This document shows, one piece after another, positions 11,969-20,416 of a stretch of DNA of 64,000 nt (positions are counted from its first letter, which is position 1; the number at the start of each line of letters is the position of its first letter). This DNA comes from Nitrospirales bacterium (lineage in GTDB: Bacteria > Nitrospirota > Nitrospiria > Nitrospirales > UBA8639), in the NCBI GenBank assembly GCA_022828225.1, contig JAJEJG010000015.1, positions 1-64,000 of the forward strand, written 5' to 3'. The notes under the pieces are model-generated. The model saw only the letters and a program-made list of their open reading frames with translations, searched no databases and had not been told where the DNA came from. Position numbers and translations under genes: made by a program.

Positions 11969-13078
11969 ATGAGCGACTCATCCTTCACCATTACAAACAT
12001 AGAACTCTGCCCTCTGGATCTTCCCATCACGGATCCCTTTGTCGTGGCTACGGGCCAACTCCGGGTCGCGCACAATGCCTTTGTCCGGCTGACACTGCAT
12101 GACGGCACCATCGGCTACGGCGAGATAGCTCCCTTTCCCGCCATTACCGGGGAAGATCGCGAGAGCAGTCTAAAGAACGCCAGGCTGTTGAGAGAACACC
12201 TGCTCGGACAATCGACTCTTCATTATCAACGGCTCGGCCATGAACTGTCCGAACGCGCTCCCGACGCTCCCGCGGCCCGGTGCGGATTGGAAACCGCGCT
12301 CCTCGACGCCCTGACACGCGCGCTTCGCATCCCCCTGTGGGCCTTGTGGGGTGGAGCGGACGTGCGTGCGCGTGAAACGGACGTCACCATTCCCATTGCC
12401 TCTTTGGAGCGAACCAAGACACTCGCCAGACAATGGTATGAACGGGGCTTTCGTCTCTTCAAAATGAAGGTCGGCCATGACGTGGACGAGGACGTTCGCC
12501 GGGTGGAAACCCTGCATCGTCATTATCCCGGCGTGGCGTTCGTAATCGATGCCAATCAGGGATACACGCGCGAGGAAGCCGCCGCCCTGGTACGGGGCAT
12601 CAACCGGTTTGGGGGCAACATTCTCCTCCTTGAACAACCGCTGGCCAAGGACGACCTTGAAGGCCACGCCGAACTGAAACGCCATTGCCGCGTACCCATT
12701 GCCGCGGACGAATCGGCACAATCATTGCACGACCTCCAGGCTGTCATCCGTCACCGGGCGGCGGACTACGTCAATATTAAAATTACCAAAAGCGGGTTGC
12801 TGGATGGGGTCCTCATGGCAACCGTAGCAAAAGCCGCCGGTCTTCAAGTGATGCTCGGAGGCATGGTGGAAACCCGAGTCGCCATGGGGTGTTCCTACGG
12901 CCTCGCCATGGGCATCGGCGGGTGTCCCGTCCTGGACCTCGACACGCCGTTGTTGCTGGGAAGTGACCCGATTGATGGCGGCTATACATACGAAGGCCCA
13001 CGGCTTCAACCATGGCACGGCCCGGGCCTCGACCTCGATATCCCTTTCTTTCGGGCTGCCCTGTCCGACCGCCTCTAA
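11969..13078 (+). CDS. enolase-superfamily dipeptide epimerase (L-Ala-D/L-Glu epimerase-like)
   Basis: At 369 residues it has the two-domain muconate-lactonising/enolase layout. Catalytic elements are in the expected order: the KMK motif (K165, K167), metal ligands D194 (DANQGY), E222 (LEQPL) and D247 (ADES), and the opposite acid/base K271 in NIKITK. These match dipeptide epimerases that recycle murein peptides, although the same framework serves other muconate-lactonising-subgroup enzymes. The last residues before the stop (LDLDIPFFRAALSDRL) reappear in a duplicated fragment at 14238-14297. Confidence 0.87.
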   Translation: MSDSSFTITNIELCPLDLPITDPFVVATGQLRVAHNAFVRLTLHDGTIGYGEIAPFPAITGEDRESSLKNARLLREHLLGQSTLHYQRLGHELSERAPDAPAARCGLETALLDALTRALRIPLWALWGGADVRARETDVTIPIASLERTKTLARQWYERGFRLFKMKVGHDVDEDVRRVETLHRHYPGVAFVIDANQGYTREEAAALVRGINRFGGNILLLEQPLAKDDLEGHAELKRHCRVPIAADESAQSLHDLQAVIRHRAADYVNIKITKSGLLDGVLMATVAKAAGLQVMLGGMVETRVAMGCSYGLAMGIGGCPVLDLDTPLLLGSDPIDGGYTYEGPRLQPWHGPGLDLDIPFFRAALSDRL

Positions 13079-13222
13079 AATAAAAAGCAACAGACCACCT
13101 CGGTCTTCCTGACACACCCGGTTTCTTGAGACTGTGGCTTTTTGCCACATGACTGTTCTCATTAATTCAGCTCATTCCTTTTAGAGTCAAAGAGTGGCAT
13201 GGATGACCTCACAAGCACCTGG

Positions 13223-13231
13223 TGGTATAAT
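13223..13231 (+). promoter_or_regulatory. extended -10 promoter element upstream of the first TetR gene
   Basis: TGGTATAAT is a consensus TGnTATAAT extended -10 box. It is conserved exactly in the duplicated copy at 14441-14449. Transcription from here would give a leader of about 190 nt before the ATG. A second weaker -10-like box (TACAAT, 13353-13358) overlaps the palindrome nearer the gene. Confidence 0.5.
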
Positions 13232-13346
13232 TCTTGTTTTTTTATCCTTGCGTGTACTGTTGTGACGTCGTCGACCTGCGAGGAAGGTCATTCAACAATT
13301 TTTGTATTTGCAGGAGGGCCGGACGGTGCACACACGGCGTGATTCA

Positions 13347-13354
13347 TACCGGTA
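13347..13354. promoter_or_regulatory. candidate TetR operator palindrome, copy 1
   Basis: TACCGGTA is a perfect 8-bp palindrome overlapping a -10-like hexamer and lying 75 bp before the TetR start. The same palindrome is kept at 14565-14572 in the second copy, where it overlaps TATAAT. Placement and conservation suggest autoregulation; binding is not shown. Confidence 0.4.
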
Positions 13355-13429
13355 CAATCTTTTTCTCCGGCATACTTGAAATTTTTGTTGTATTTTCAGT
13401 ATCATAGGACAAAAGGAAGGCTTGCAGCT

Positions 13430-14089
13430 ATGCCTAGGAAGAAACGATTTGCTGTCGAGGATGTCAGGCAGAAAGCAATGGCTACCTTCTGGAGCCAAGG
13501 CTATCATGCGACATCTTTACAGGATCTGGTGGATAACATGGGGATAAACCGTGCAAGCCTCTACGACACGTTCCAAGATAAGTATTCCCTTTTCCTTGAT
13601 AGCTTATGCGCCTATAGATTGGTCTACATCAAGTCCTATCTGGCGGAGCAAATGAAAAAGCATACGCCCCGCCAAGCCATCATCAACTACTTTCTGGATA
13701 TGATCCTGAAGGCAGACGAACGAAACGGGTGTTTGATGGTCAATACGGCTTTGGAGTTATCGGCGCATGACGACAAAGTGGCAAAAATCGTGGAGCAGAG
13801 CTTCAAGCACATAGAAAGGAATTTCTTCCGCAAATTGATCGAGCAGGGTCAGGCCACCGGAGAAATTGCCAAGTCAGTGATTCCGATTACGACCGCACGC
13901 GCCTTGTTGAGTCTGCTTATCGGCTTATGTGTCCTCTCCCGTGGCAAATCGAGCAAGCCGATGATGGAGGCGATCGTGTTACAGGTGAAATCGCTTCTAC
14001 CCCTTGGGGATCATGCAACCCTGCCCCCTCCGGTCTCCCTCAAGCACAATGGTCGCAAAATCCATACCAACGGGGCTCATGCAGGATGA
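13430..14089 (+). CDS. TetR/AcrR-family transcriptional regulator, copy 1
   Basis: A 219-residue regulator. ATG 13430 is chosen because AAGGAAGG lies 9 nt upstream. The N-terminal helix-turn-helix is typical of TetR (FWSQGYHATSLQDLVDNMGINRASLYDTFQDK, about residues 20-51). The C-terminal ligand domain contains RNGCLMVNTALELS, a signature of the subgroup that includes cysteine-based electrophile sensors such as NemR. It is roughly 60 percent identical by eye to the next gene. No efflux pump or reductase lies alongside, so the target genes are unclear. Confidence 0.92.
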   Translation: MPRKKRFAVEDVRQKAMATFWSQGYHATSLQDLVDNMGINRASLYDTFQDKYSLFLDSLCAYRLVYIKSYLAEQMKKHTPRQAIINYFLDMILKADERNGCLMVNTALELSAHDDKVAKIVEQSFKHIERNFFRKLIEQGQATGEIAKSVIPITTARALLSLLIGLCVLSRGKSSKPMMEAIVLQVKSLLPLGDHATLPPPVSLKHNGRKIHTNGAHAG

Positions 14090-14237
14090 CCATAGAAGAC
14101 TGATTCCGCGTGACTCCGCCGTGACGTTGTTCCCTCCGCTTTCCTTCTCAGAGTAAAAAACCTTCGACAGTTCTTCTTACTGCATTCTCCAACCGCTGGT
14201 TGCTTCGGCCGCGGACGGGCGCACGGGCGGTGGTGCC

Positions 14238-14297
14238 ATCCCGGACCTCGATCTCGCCATTCCTTTCTTTCTGGCTGCCCTGTCCGACCGCTTATAA
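14238..14297 (+). pseudogene. duplicated 3' fragment of the epimerase gene
   Basis: Reading in frame to TAA at 14295-14297 gives LDLAIPFFLAALSDRL, nearly identical to the last 16 residues of the epimerase at 13028-13078. There is no start or upstream coding sequence, so this is a non-functional remnant that marks the left boundary of the duplication. Confidence 0.85.
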
Positions 14298-14440
14298 AAT
14301 GAAACGCGGCAGACCACCTCGGTCTTCCTGCCACATCCGGCTTCTTCAGACTGCGGCTTTTTGCCACATTACTGTTCTCACTAATTCGCTCATTCCTTTT
14401 AAAATCAAAGAGTTGCATGGATGACATCACGAGTGCATGG

Positions 14441-14449
14441 TGGTATAAT
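14441..14449 (+). promoter_or_regulatory. extended -10 promoter element upstream of the second TetR gene
   Basis: An exact copy of the TGGTATAAT element at 13223-13231, in the same position within the duplicated intergenic region. Confidence 0.5.
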
Positions 14450-14564
14450 TTTTGCTAATTTATTATTGTGTGTATTGTTGTGACGTCCTCGACCTGTGAG
14501 GAAGGTCATTCGACGGTTTTTGTATTTGCAAGAAGGCCGGACGATGCACGCACGGCGCAATTCA

Positions 14565-14576
14565 TACCGGTATAAT
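14565..14576. promoter_or_regulatory. candidate operator palindrome overlapping a -10 box, copy 2
   Basis: TACCGGTA (14565-14572) overlaps TATAAT (14571-14576). A repressor bound to the palindrome would block this -10 element. It is the counterpart of 13347-13354. Confidence 0.4.
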
Positions 14577-14642
14577 TTCCTTTTCCAGTATACTTGAAAT
14601 TTTTGTGTATTTTCAGTATGAGCAGCGCAAAGGAGGCATGTT

Positions 14643-15320
14643 ATGCCGAGGAAAAAACAGTTTGGCGTTGATGATGTCATGCAGAAAGCAATGGTAGCCT
14701 TTTGGGATCATGGTTATAGGGGAACGTCTCTCCAGGATCTTGTGGAATGCATGGGCATTAACCGGGCCAGTCTGTATGACACGTTTGGCGACAAGTACGC
14801 CCTCTTTATTGAAACCTTGCACAACTACAACCGTACCTTCGTCAAGCCCTTACTGACGGAACGAATCAAGACGTATTCGCCCCGCCAAGCCATCACCGGT
14901 TTATTCGACGAAATCTGTAGCGGGATAGAGAAAGGTGAGGAACGAAACGGATGTTTTATCATCAATACGGCCTTGGAGTTGTCTCCGCATGATCAAAAAG
15001 TTTCAAAAATCGTCAATCGGACTTTCTCCTACGTCGAAAGGAATTTCTTCCGCAAACTCATCGAACGGGGCCAAGCCAGTGGGGAGATTTCCAAATCAGT
15101 GATTCCGGCCACGACTTCACGCACCTTGCTGAACGTGTTGATCGGGTTGCGGGTGCTTTCCCGCAACCGTCCGGAAAAAGCATTACTGAACTCAGTCAGG
15201 GACCAGGTCCAGGCGCTTTTGCCGCCCGGCGAAAATGCAGCGATTCCCCACCCCGCCTTGCAACCCCGCAGGAGTCGGGCTCGCAGGCAGGTTTTTCCCG
15301 CCGTCGCTCACGTAGCGTGA
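14643..15320 (+). CDS. TetR/AcrR-family transcriptional regulator, copy 2
   Basis: A 225-residue paralogue of the preceding regulator, starting MPRKKQFGVDDV with AAAGGAGG about 7 nt before the ATG. The helix-turn-helix and the RNGCFIINTALELS signature are kept. The coding parts have diverged more than the non-coding upstream DNA. It is followed by 178 bp without a gene before the M16 peptidase cluster. It may regulate itself, its twin, or that cluster. Confidence 0.92.
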   Translation: MPRKKQFGVDDVMQKAMVAFWDHGYRGTSLQDLVECMGINRASLYDTFGDKYALFIETLHNYNRTFVKPLLTERIKTYSPRQAITGLFDEICSGIEKGEERNGCFIINTALELSPHDQKVSKIVNRTFSYVERNFFRKLIERGQASGEISKSVIPATTSRTLLNVLIGLRVLSRNRPEKALLNSVRDQVQALLPPGENAAIPHPALQPRRSRARRQVFPAVAHVA

Positions 15321-15498
15321 CAAAAAAGAAGGCTGGGCATACGTGACGCTGCAAGTGACGGCGGTGCCTTCCTCCATTCCTTCACATCGCGTCCTCCCCC
15401 GGAAAATCATTCGATTTACTCGAATGATTTGTCGTTAACTTGCAAGGCATTATTGAACTGGTTAGGATATCAGAAAGCTCTTTTGCGCAAACTTGCCT

Positions 15499-17052
15499 AT
15501 GCTTTCGATTCCCGCACAGCGACCGCCACGACGCCTTTTCACCCTGTTTCTGTTCTGCATTTTCTGTTTTCCTTCCGCTTCTCAAGCAATTGACCTTGCG
15601 TCCTTCGAACAGAACGTCACGGAATACACCGTCAAGAACGGCTGGACCTTTATTCTCGTTGAACGCCCCGTAGCCCCGGTGTTCGCCTTTATGACGGCCG
15701 TGAACGTGGGGTCGGCACAGGAAGGCGCGGGACGGACCGGGCTCGCGCACATGTTCGAACACATGGCCTTTAAAGGCACGCCTCGCCTCGGCACGAAAAA
15801 CTACAAAGCAGAGAAAAAAGCCCTGGAGGAATTGGAACGGGCGTATCTGGCTTACCAGGAAGCCAGGTTGAATCCCGCGTCCGATGCCCAACACATCGAA
15901 GACCTGTCAAACGTCTTTAAAGGCAAGCAAGAAGCCGCTGCGAAATTTGTGAAAAAAAACGCATTCGGGGACATCGTTGAACGAGAAGGCGGGGTCGCCT
16001 TAAACGCCTTTACCGGCGCCGACGTCACCGGCTATTTTTATGCACTCCCGGCCAACAAGATCGAACTCTTCTGTTATCTGGAGTCGGAACGATTCCTGCA
16101 CCCGGTGTTTCGCGAGTTCTACGAAGAACGGGACGTGGTGATGGAAGAGCGCCGGATGCGCACGGAGAGCCGGCCCGTCGGCCGGCTGTTCGAACAATTC
16201 GTGGTCACGGCCTTCTCGGCTCATCCCTATCACCACCCGGTGATCGGCTATGCCAGTGACATTCAGTCCTATACCATGACCGATGCCAAAGAATTCTTTG
16301 ACACGTATTACGTGCCGTCCAACATGGTCACGGCGATCGTCGGCGACATTGACCCGAAGACCTTGATCCCCTTGCTGGAAACCTATTTCGGCCGGATTCC
16401 CGGCAGACCGAAACCGCCGGACTTACGGACCGTGGAACCCCCGTCTATTGCGGAGAAAGTGGTGACGATCGAGGATCCCGCTCAACCCTTCTACATGGAA
16501 GGGTACCATAAGCCTGCAGCCACGCATCCCGATCAACCCGTGTTCGACGCCATCGACGATATTTTGACGAACGGACGGACCTCCAGGTTCTACCGCTCAC
16601 TGGTCCGGAACAAACAAATTGCAGTCGACACCGGAGCCTATGGAGCCTACCCGGGCGAAAAATATCCGCACCTGTGGGTGGCGTACGCGGTGCCCGCGCG
16701 TGGGGTTGCCAACGAAACCGTCCAGCAAGCCATCCGCGAAGAATTGGATCGGCTGAAGACTGAAGACGTCACGGACGAGGAATTGGCCAAGTTCCGAACC
16801 AGGGCCAAAGCCAGCCTGATCTATTCCTTGAAAAGCAATCTCGGGCTGGCTATGAGCTTGACGGACTACCAGACCCTCTTCGGTGATTGGCGCGAACTGT
16901 TTCGCTACATTCAACGCTTTGACCATGTCACGAAAGCTGATATCCGGCGCATCGCCCGGCAAACGTTCACTGCCTCCAATCGGGTTGTGGGACAGATAGA
17001 AACCGTGCCCCCGGCCGCTCCTACATCGGCGGCCAGCCAGAAGGAATCATGA
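15499..17052 (+). CDS. M16-family zinc metallopeptidase, catalytic partner
   Basis: A 517-residue exported peptidase with a hydrophobic signal (LFTLFLFCIFCFPSASQA). The inverted zinc motif HxxEH is intact: H84, E87, H88 in AHMFEHMAF. The distal glutamate expected about 75 residues later fits the DVVMEERR segment. M16 peptidases such as PqqL and Sphingomonas-type pairs degrade small peptides in a clam-shell chamber. The next gene encodes a partner without the zinc motif, so the two probably form a heterodimer. The start is ATG 15499; an in-frame TTG two codons earlier is possible. Confidence 0.92.
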   Translation: MLSIPAQRPPRRLFTLFLFCIFCFPSASQAIDLASFEQNVTEYTVKNGWTFILVERPVAPVFAFMTAVNVGSAQEGAGRTGLAHMFEHMAFKGTPRLGTKNYKAEKKALEELERAYLAYQEARLNPASDAQHIEDLSNVFKGKQEAAAKFVKKNAFGDIVEREGGVALNAFTGADVTGYFYALPANKIELFCYLESERFLHPVFREFYEERDVVMEERRMRTESRPVGRLFEQFVVTAFSAHPYHHPVIGYASDIQSYTMTDAKEFFDTYYVPSNMVTAIVGDIDPKTLIPLLETYFGRIPGRPKPPDLRTVEPPSIAEKVVTIEDPAQPFYMEGYHKPAATHPDQPVFDAIDDILTNGRTSRFYRSLVRNKQIAVDTGAYGAYPGEKYPHLWVAYAVPARGVANETVQQAIREELDRLKTEDVTDEELAKFRTRAKASLIYSLKSNLGLAMSLTDYQTLFGDWRELFRYIQRFDHVTKADIRRIARQTFTASNRVVGQIETVPPAAPTSAASQKES

Positions 17053-19420: not shown

Positions 19421-19480
19421 CACTGTTCCTTTCCTGTTTAACTGTCATACGACACGGAAATGCAACATGGAGGATTAATG

Positions 19481-20416
19481 ATGAGTAAGATTGCACGTCG
19501 TCCGATTGCAGCTCTTTTCATGATGGTTGTCCTGCTCCCGATTGCAGATGCGGAAGCTGCAGAACGACGCGGATTCTATTTCGGCGCGGACATAGGGGTC
19601 TCCGTCCCGAACGATCTCAAGTCCACGCGCACGAATAACGGCATTGGGACGAACTGCGATCAATGGCTCACGGCAGACACATTGAATGACGGTACCACGG
19701 TCCCGCTGCCTTTGGAACAGTGTTCACCCAGGGACCTGCCTAAACGGGCGACCAAATTCGATCTTGGCACGGGATTGCTGGCCGGAGTCAACCTCGGCTA
19801 TGCCTTTCGCGATTTTCGTCTTGAAGCCGAGTATTTTCGTCGTGAGCAAAGCGGTGAACGTTCGGCACTCAACGTTCTCGGCGATCCGAAACAGGCGGAG
19901 TTTGTCGAACGAAGTGAAAAAATTGGTGATTTCCAAGCCGATAATTTCTTTGCCAACGTCTATTATGACTTTCATAACGTGCTATCGGCCAATCTGACTC
20001 CTTACGTGGGGGTGGGGTTAGGGGTGATGCGCGTGCAAATGGACTATTCGGGAACATCCATCAGAACAAACAACAGGGCTACGCTCCAGGCATTGGGCCG
20101 CAATCGTAATGCGGCAGGACTGGCCTCATTGGCCGATGAAGTCCTGTCCGACACTTTGTTCGGGTACCAGTGGATAGCCGGCCTGGATTACGCATGGAGC
20201 GAACGATCTTCCGTAGGATTGAAATTCCGCTATGGCGATGCCTTCAGCGATTTCGAGGACGGCAATAACGCGTGGAAGCCATTGAGAGGCCACGCATCCA
20301 CGGTTGGTCCGCCAGGGACTCCGGGCGCCGCTCTTCCGATCCGTTACACTATTAGAGCCAAGGATTTGAGTTTCTTTGGAATCTCATTGAATTTCAAATA
20401 CTTTTTTGACATGTGA
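19481..20416 (+). CDS. outer-membrane beta-barrel protein (family member 1)
   Basis: A 311-residue protein with a signal peptide ending ADAEA and beginning GFYFGADIGV in the mature part. It has amphipathic strands such as YRLEAEYF, NVYYDF, PYVGVGLG and VGLKFRYG, as in 8-stranded OmpA/OmpW-type barrels. GGAGG at 19469-19473 is 7 nt before ATG 19481; an adjacent ATG at 19478 and one at 19460 are less well placed. It belongs to the same family as five other loci in this window but is the most diverged and ends KYFFDM rather than in aromatic phenylalanine. Confidence 0.88.
   Translation: MSKIARRPIAALFMMVVLLPIADAEAAERRGFYFGADIGVSVPNDLKSTRTNNGIGTNCDQWLTADTLNDGTTVPLPLEQCSPRDLPKRATKFDLGTGLLAGVNLGYAFRDFRLEAEYFRREQSGERSALNVLGDPKQAEFVERSEKIGDFQADNFFANVYYDFHNVLSANLTPYVGVGLGVMRVQMDYSGTSIRTNNRATLQALGRNRNAAGLASLADEVLSDTLFGYQWIAGLDYAWSERSSVGLKFRYGDAFSDFEDGNNAWKPLRGHASTVGPPGTPGAALPIRYTIRAKDLSFFGISLNFKYFFDM

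Follow-up and report, generated by a model that had tools for sequence, protein, structure and literature searches.

Two tandem genes of TetR-family regulators, TetR1 and TetR2, have nearly the same promoter in the analyzed window (the whole stretch of 64,000 nucleotides of contig JAJEJG010000015.1, Nitrospirales assembly GCA_022828225.1), because about 380 bases were copied from the front of one gene to the front of the other. Two separate events very likely shaped this locus, namely, an old tandem duplication that yielded the TetR paralogs, and a later copying of about 380 bp between the two positions, which is confined to the lineage of the window and replaced the promoter of the recipient gene. 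The copy itself is seen directly in the alignment, whereas its mechanism, as discussed below, is a reconstruction from sequence.

The local gene order is HtrA-like protein, VKOR-like protein, molybdopterin oxidoreductase, epimerase, TetR1, TetR2, two M16 peptidases, and M48 peptidase. The epimerase gene (11969–13078, + strand) encodes an enolase-superfamily protein, probably an L-Ala-D/L-Glu epimerase (Pfam MR_MLE_C, E = 1.6e-41); its best NCBIfam model is NF041118 (E = 8e-71), yet the match lies under the cut-off of this model. Orthologs of the epimerase are found in nine congeners, with 70–89% identity. TetR1 (13430–14089, + strand, 219 aa) and TetR2 (14643–15320, + strand, 225 aa) both match the Pfam domains TetR_N (E = 3e-10 and 1e-9; 40.2 and 38.4 bits, the curated cut-off being 24) and TetR_C_13. 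They resemble the TetR_C_13 subgroup (LmrA/YxaF, AcuR-like) in these domain matches and in having a putative dyad operator over their own promoter, and differ from it in that no match of either protein reaches any NCBIfam cut-off, so that neither receives a specific assignment. The locus is bounded downstream by the first M16 peptidase gene (15493–17052, + strand; Pfam Peptidase_M16 and M16_C), which is syntenic in the relatives. Unlike the surrounding spacers, the stretch 15419–15475 upstream of this gene (ACTTGCAAGGC...GAACTGGTTAGGATA) is strongly conserved genus-wide, and is probably its promoter. The nearest relatives according to the epimerase protein query are Nitrospirales genomes from metagenomes, including Nitrospira sp. 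bin75, and the query with the TetR1 protein produced no match in the genome-contig collection. We infer that the organism is a member of the GTDB genus bin75, most of which, according to PMC11812461, is associated with sponges.

The repeated tract comprises the last 58 bp (13021–13078), or 19 codons, of the epimerase gene at its 5′ end, followed by the TetR1 promoter region (copy 1, 13021–13402, + strand), and recurs with about 86% identity in front of TetR2 (copy 2, 14240–14619, + strand), where the epimerase 3′ fragment occupies positions 14240–14297. The gapped alignment of the copies begins at 13021/14240, which places the start given in the earlier note, 13023, within two bases of the observed one and bears out its description of a repeat containing the epimerase tail and the promoter. 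The intact epimerase gene terminates in LDLDIPFFRAALSDRL and a stop codon at 13078, and the fragment encodes LDLAIPFFLAALSDRL and a stop codon at 14247–14297; the match of the tails has a score of 76 against a shuffle maximum of 31. The copies are 86% identical in the epimerase tail (50/58) and 84% identical in the intergenic part (291/345), with the K2P distance of 0.158 and with 53 differences at 380 sites distributed evenly. According to the sliding identity, the level is constant across the epimerase fragment and the promoter and falls right after the operator, with the right edge of the high-identity block at about 13402/14619; the 5′ leader and the genes are already at about 70% (69% for the coding regions in the local alignment, 66% in the codon alignment). 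The upstream identity, judged by eye as about 85%, was measured as 84–86%, and the protein identity, given in the earlier note as about 60%, was measured as 56–58%. The tract is also significantly more similar than the third codon positions of the TetR genes (86% vs 51%, p = 1e-19) and their fourfold degenerate sites (86% vs 48%, p = 7e-9). The comparison with third codon positions, which the earlier note had set as a way to refute its reading, went in favor of that note. Searched as a repeat element, it has only two copies in the window's genome.

The TetR1 and TetR2 genes, in turn, are old tandem paralogs between the epimerase and M16 genes that predate the split of the window's species from its relatives. 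Their silent sites are near saturation (dS 1.12, dN 0.34), and dN/dS, whose estimation had been proposed along with the repeat, is about 0.3, so that both genes are under purifying selection. We sampled 13 congeners for the TetR content of the locus. The pair occupies the same place, between the epimerase and the M16 peptidase, in four of them (G003, G005, G012, and G013), six have a single TetR gene (frameshifted in G006, and no longer adjoining the epimerase in G011), and at the locus of the remaining three no TetR was found. In the coding tree, TetR1 genes of five species, including that of the window, form one clade (support 100/100) that excludes the single genes, which group with TetR2; TetR2 of the window also groups with the TetR2 and single TetR genes of the relatives. 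The tree constrained to join the two window genes is rejected (p-AU = 2.7e-66). The neighbor genes place G003 as sister to the window's species.

The promoters of these genes have a different distribution. Comparison of 110 bp upstream of each TetR start defines three promoter types. Type A is found before TetR1 of G003, G005, G012, and G013 (weaker in the latter) and before the single gene of G010; type B, before TetR2 of G003 and G013 and an extra TetR gene on contig 60 of G005; and type C, before the single genes of G001, G008, and G011 and both window genes. As G003 has types A and B, and the window has type C at both positions, both window promoters differ from those of the sister. The upstream regions of TetR1 in the window and G003 align with a score of 23 (z about 2), and those of TetR2 align weakly (z about 3.5), that is, orthologous TetR genes have non-homologous or highly divergent upstream regions. 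The G003 spacer between the epimerase and TetR1 (about 110 bp) contains, in its type A promoter, a perfect palindrome, ACTTGAATTTCATATTCAAGT, which is the sole exact match listed for the G003 genome. In G003, G005, and G013, the two positions carry different promoters. Moreover, promoter types and the coding tree are incongruent at least twice outside the window: TetR2 of G013 (type B) groups with the genes of G001 and G008 (type C), and the extra gene of G005 (type B) groups with that of G011 (type C).

The putative TetR operator of the window (13371–13402, + strand) is an imperfect dyad, TACTTGAAAT..ATTTTCAGTA, overlapping the −35/−10-like hexamer pair of the type C promoter detected by the promoter scan; homologous sites precede the single TetR genes in G001, G008, and G011, and binding is predicted from these observations. 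The position of the dyad over the promoter-like hexamers points to autoregulation through the operator in the own promoter as the likely role of the TetR proteins, and the presence of the putative operator before both genes suggests cross-regulation; the paralogs, despite their divergence, would likely now be placed behind the same autoregulatory operator and promoter. A scan of the window's genome with the type C dyad, allowing up to three mismatches, retrieved the TetR1 site only, the TetR2 copy, at 14590–14619, misfitting the pattern due to the loss of one base, and the type A palindrome yielded only sites with three mismatches; thus, these scans found no regulon in this genome. There is some small chance that the cassette was not only copied but also kept alike by selection for joint control, with diverged TetR paralogs answering one operator by cross-repression or as heterodimers, in a genus where the TetR locus repeatedly swaps promoters independently of the coding sequence.

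In the comparison with 58 relatives, the tract is absent save for the operator/promoter core, 26–32 bp long, that precedes TetR in G001, G008, and G011. In the sister, G003, the promoters of both TetR genes are different, and an epimerase tail is not clearly present between these genes, the faint epimerase-like stretch in the spacer scoring 33, within the shuffle range (mean 23, maximum 38); similarly, none of G003, G005, G012, and G013 has an epimerase remnant between TetR1 and TetR2 that scores significantly above shuffled sequences. The distance between the tract copies, 0.158, is lower than the smallest dS of a neighbor gene to any relative (0.255, M16a of G011), but the fourfold identities overlap (86% for the tract vs 82% for M16a of G011, p = 0.18), so that the data do not clearly date the tract after the split of M16a from G011. 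Because of this overlap, the lack of the tract in the sister makes the stronger case for a late copy; the tract is recent or, at a minimum, local to the lineage.

These data also bear on an alternative that we consider improbable, in which one old duplication included the epimerase tail, and the promoters have been kept alike since then by gene conversion in this lineage (concerted evolution). An old epimerase remnant upstream of the extra TetR gene on G005 contig 60 (score 100, shuffle maximum 32) shows that units of the tail and TetR have moved before; however, the four congeners with the pair show no significant remnant between the genes, and in three of them the promoters at the two positions differ.

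Strong selective constraint on regulatory DNA as the only cause of the higher identity, which the earlier note had put forward alongside gene conversion, is highly improbable. The operator core common to three relatives does mean that at least 30 bp are conserved, but the remaining 350 bp have no match in any relative, the functionless epimerase fragment, expected to drift freely, is as similar as the promoter, and the identity is even along the tract. In addition, the Rfam search of the tract gave no match above the gathering score, the one listed match being far below it, and RNA folding of the tract is no better than that of shuffled sequences (z = −0.7). Gene conversion, or a process akin to it, is the better fit. 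The tract is much more alike than its flanks, whose age is that of the older duplication (K2P 0.158 vs dS 1.1).

The original proposal, by which both TetR genes and the copy of the tail arose in a single lineage-specific segmental tandem duplication, with fast protein divergence afterwards, is scarcely credible: the order epimerase–TetR–epimerase tail–TetR is its expected product, but the silent sites of the genes are near saturation while the distance in the tract is 0.16, the orthologs of TetR1 are present in four other species, and the tree joining the window genes is rejected. The cross-species TetR1 clade refutes this reading. The chance of an assembly artefact is negligible, since, although the titled relatives are metagenome assemblies too, misassembly would yield near-identical copies rather than ones with evenly spread differences, and the 2.36 Mb genome is 99.97% complete and 0.17% contaminated.

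Under the preferred two-event history, TetR1 and TetR2 duplicated between the epimerase and M16 genes before the species split, and later, in the window's lineage only, about 380 bp with the epimerase C-terminal tail and the operator-containing promoter were copied, displacing the old promoter of the recipient. This order of events is indicated by the greater age of the gene pair and the lack of the tract in the relatives, including the sister. The probable donor was position 1, behind the epimerase, and the recipient position 2, in front of TetR2, which is the simplest option given that the tail must derive from the epimerase gene and that the type C promoter of G001 lies directly behind the epimerase. 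The boundary and, most likely, the front-to-back direction proposed earlier hold for the tail and promoter, and not for the origin of the genes. As type C promoters elsewhere drive TetR2-type genes, the transfer might also have gone from TetR2 to TetR1, or the cassette might have been imported from another species, and type A at position 1 might have been replaced by type C through transfer from a G001-like relative.

The copy might have arisen by non-reciprocal homologous recombination, with the similar 5′ ends of the TetR genes as the anchor and an illegitimate join at about 14207–14239, or, alternatively, by tandem duplication and a subsequent deletion between the TetR copies. The right end of the tract is beside the TetR start, and homology at the left end would call for a remnant of the epimerase that predates the event, the corresponding score in the G003 spacer being within the shuffle range. 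The sequence preceding the left junction (14090–14239, + strand, with the junction at about 14207–14239) is the old downstream region of TetR1, as it aligns with the post-TetR spacers of G003 and G005 up to approximately 14206–14217, the stretch shared with G003 starting at 14094.

Gene conversion between tandem paralogs is a local, non-reciprocal copying between repeats that leaves sharp identity boundaries. The window tract is likewise local, non-reciprocal, and sharply bounded, but it covers upstream DNA only, the coding regions having escaped, and its left end is without clear homology. Homology-facilitated illegitimate recombination, known for incoming linear DNA (PMC3240628), would account for the junctions, with its homologous end at the TetR start and its illegitimate one at 14207–14239; unlike the described cases, an internal donor is equally possible for the window. 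The locus is also similar to what is known in bacteria as intergenic-region switching or horizontal regulatory transfer, in which, as PMC5890482 describes from Oren et al. (2014, PNAS), a divergent promoter replaces the old one and the gene stays; here, promoter types and the coding tree disagree as well. The difference is that the donor of one replacement was the neighboring paralog on the same chromosome, and that part of the upstream gene was carried over with the promoter.

Thus, an old gene pair with a later promoter copy is a known kind of event, neat but ordinary, with an unusually clear record; the literature search retrieved no earlier report on this locus. It provides a clean, datable case of tandem regulators whose promoter and coding sequence have different histories, and one where ages of duplicates inferred from flanking DNA would be misleading. 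It also makes natural comparisons of swapped promoters available in a group whose named genus, bin75, is found mostly in marine sponges.

The locus is generally unstable in the genus. On contig 72 of G005 (L063, 7047–7232), the two TetR genes enclose a 5′ piece of the M16 peptidase gene (103 bp; score 121, maximum in shuffles 31), a separate duplication or insertion scar at the same locus. At an unrelated place on contig 60 of G005 (L074, about 1795–1900), the epimerase C-terminal remnant upstream of the extra TetR gene is frameshifted and closer to the epimerase of G003 than to that of G005 itself, which suggests transfer or misbinning. The epimerase was not found in G013 and G008, and in a more distant congener, G009 (L098, 7682–11647), a gene for a 1321-aa autotransporter-like protein is located between the epimerase and the M16 peptidase, with no TetR found. 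The genus also has a second TetR subfamily (L073, L075–L078; 51–59% identical), whose genes lie near, and in divergent orientation to, a gene for a protein 34–37% related to the outer-membrane-like protein encoded at 19460–20416 of the window, and are sometimes tandemly duplicated themselves (contig 68 of G005 and contig 43 of G003).
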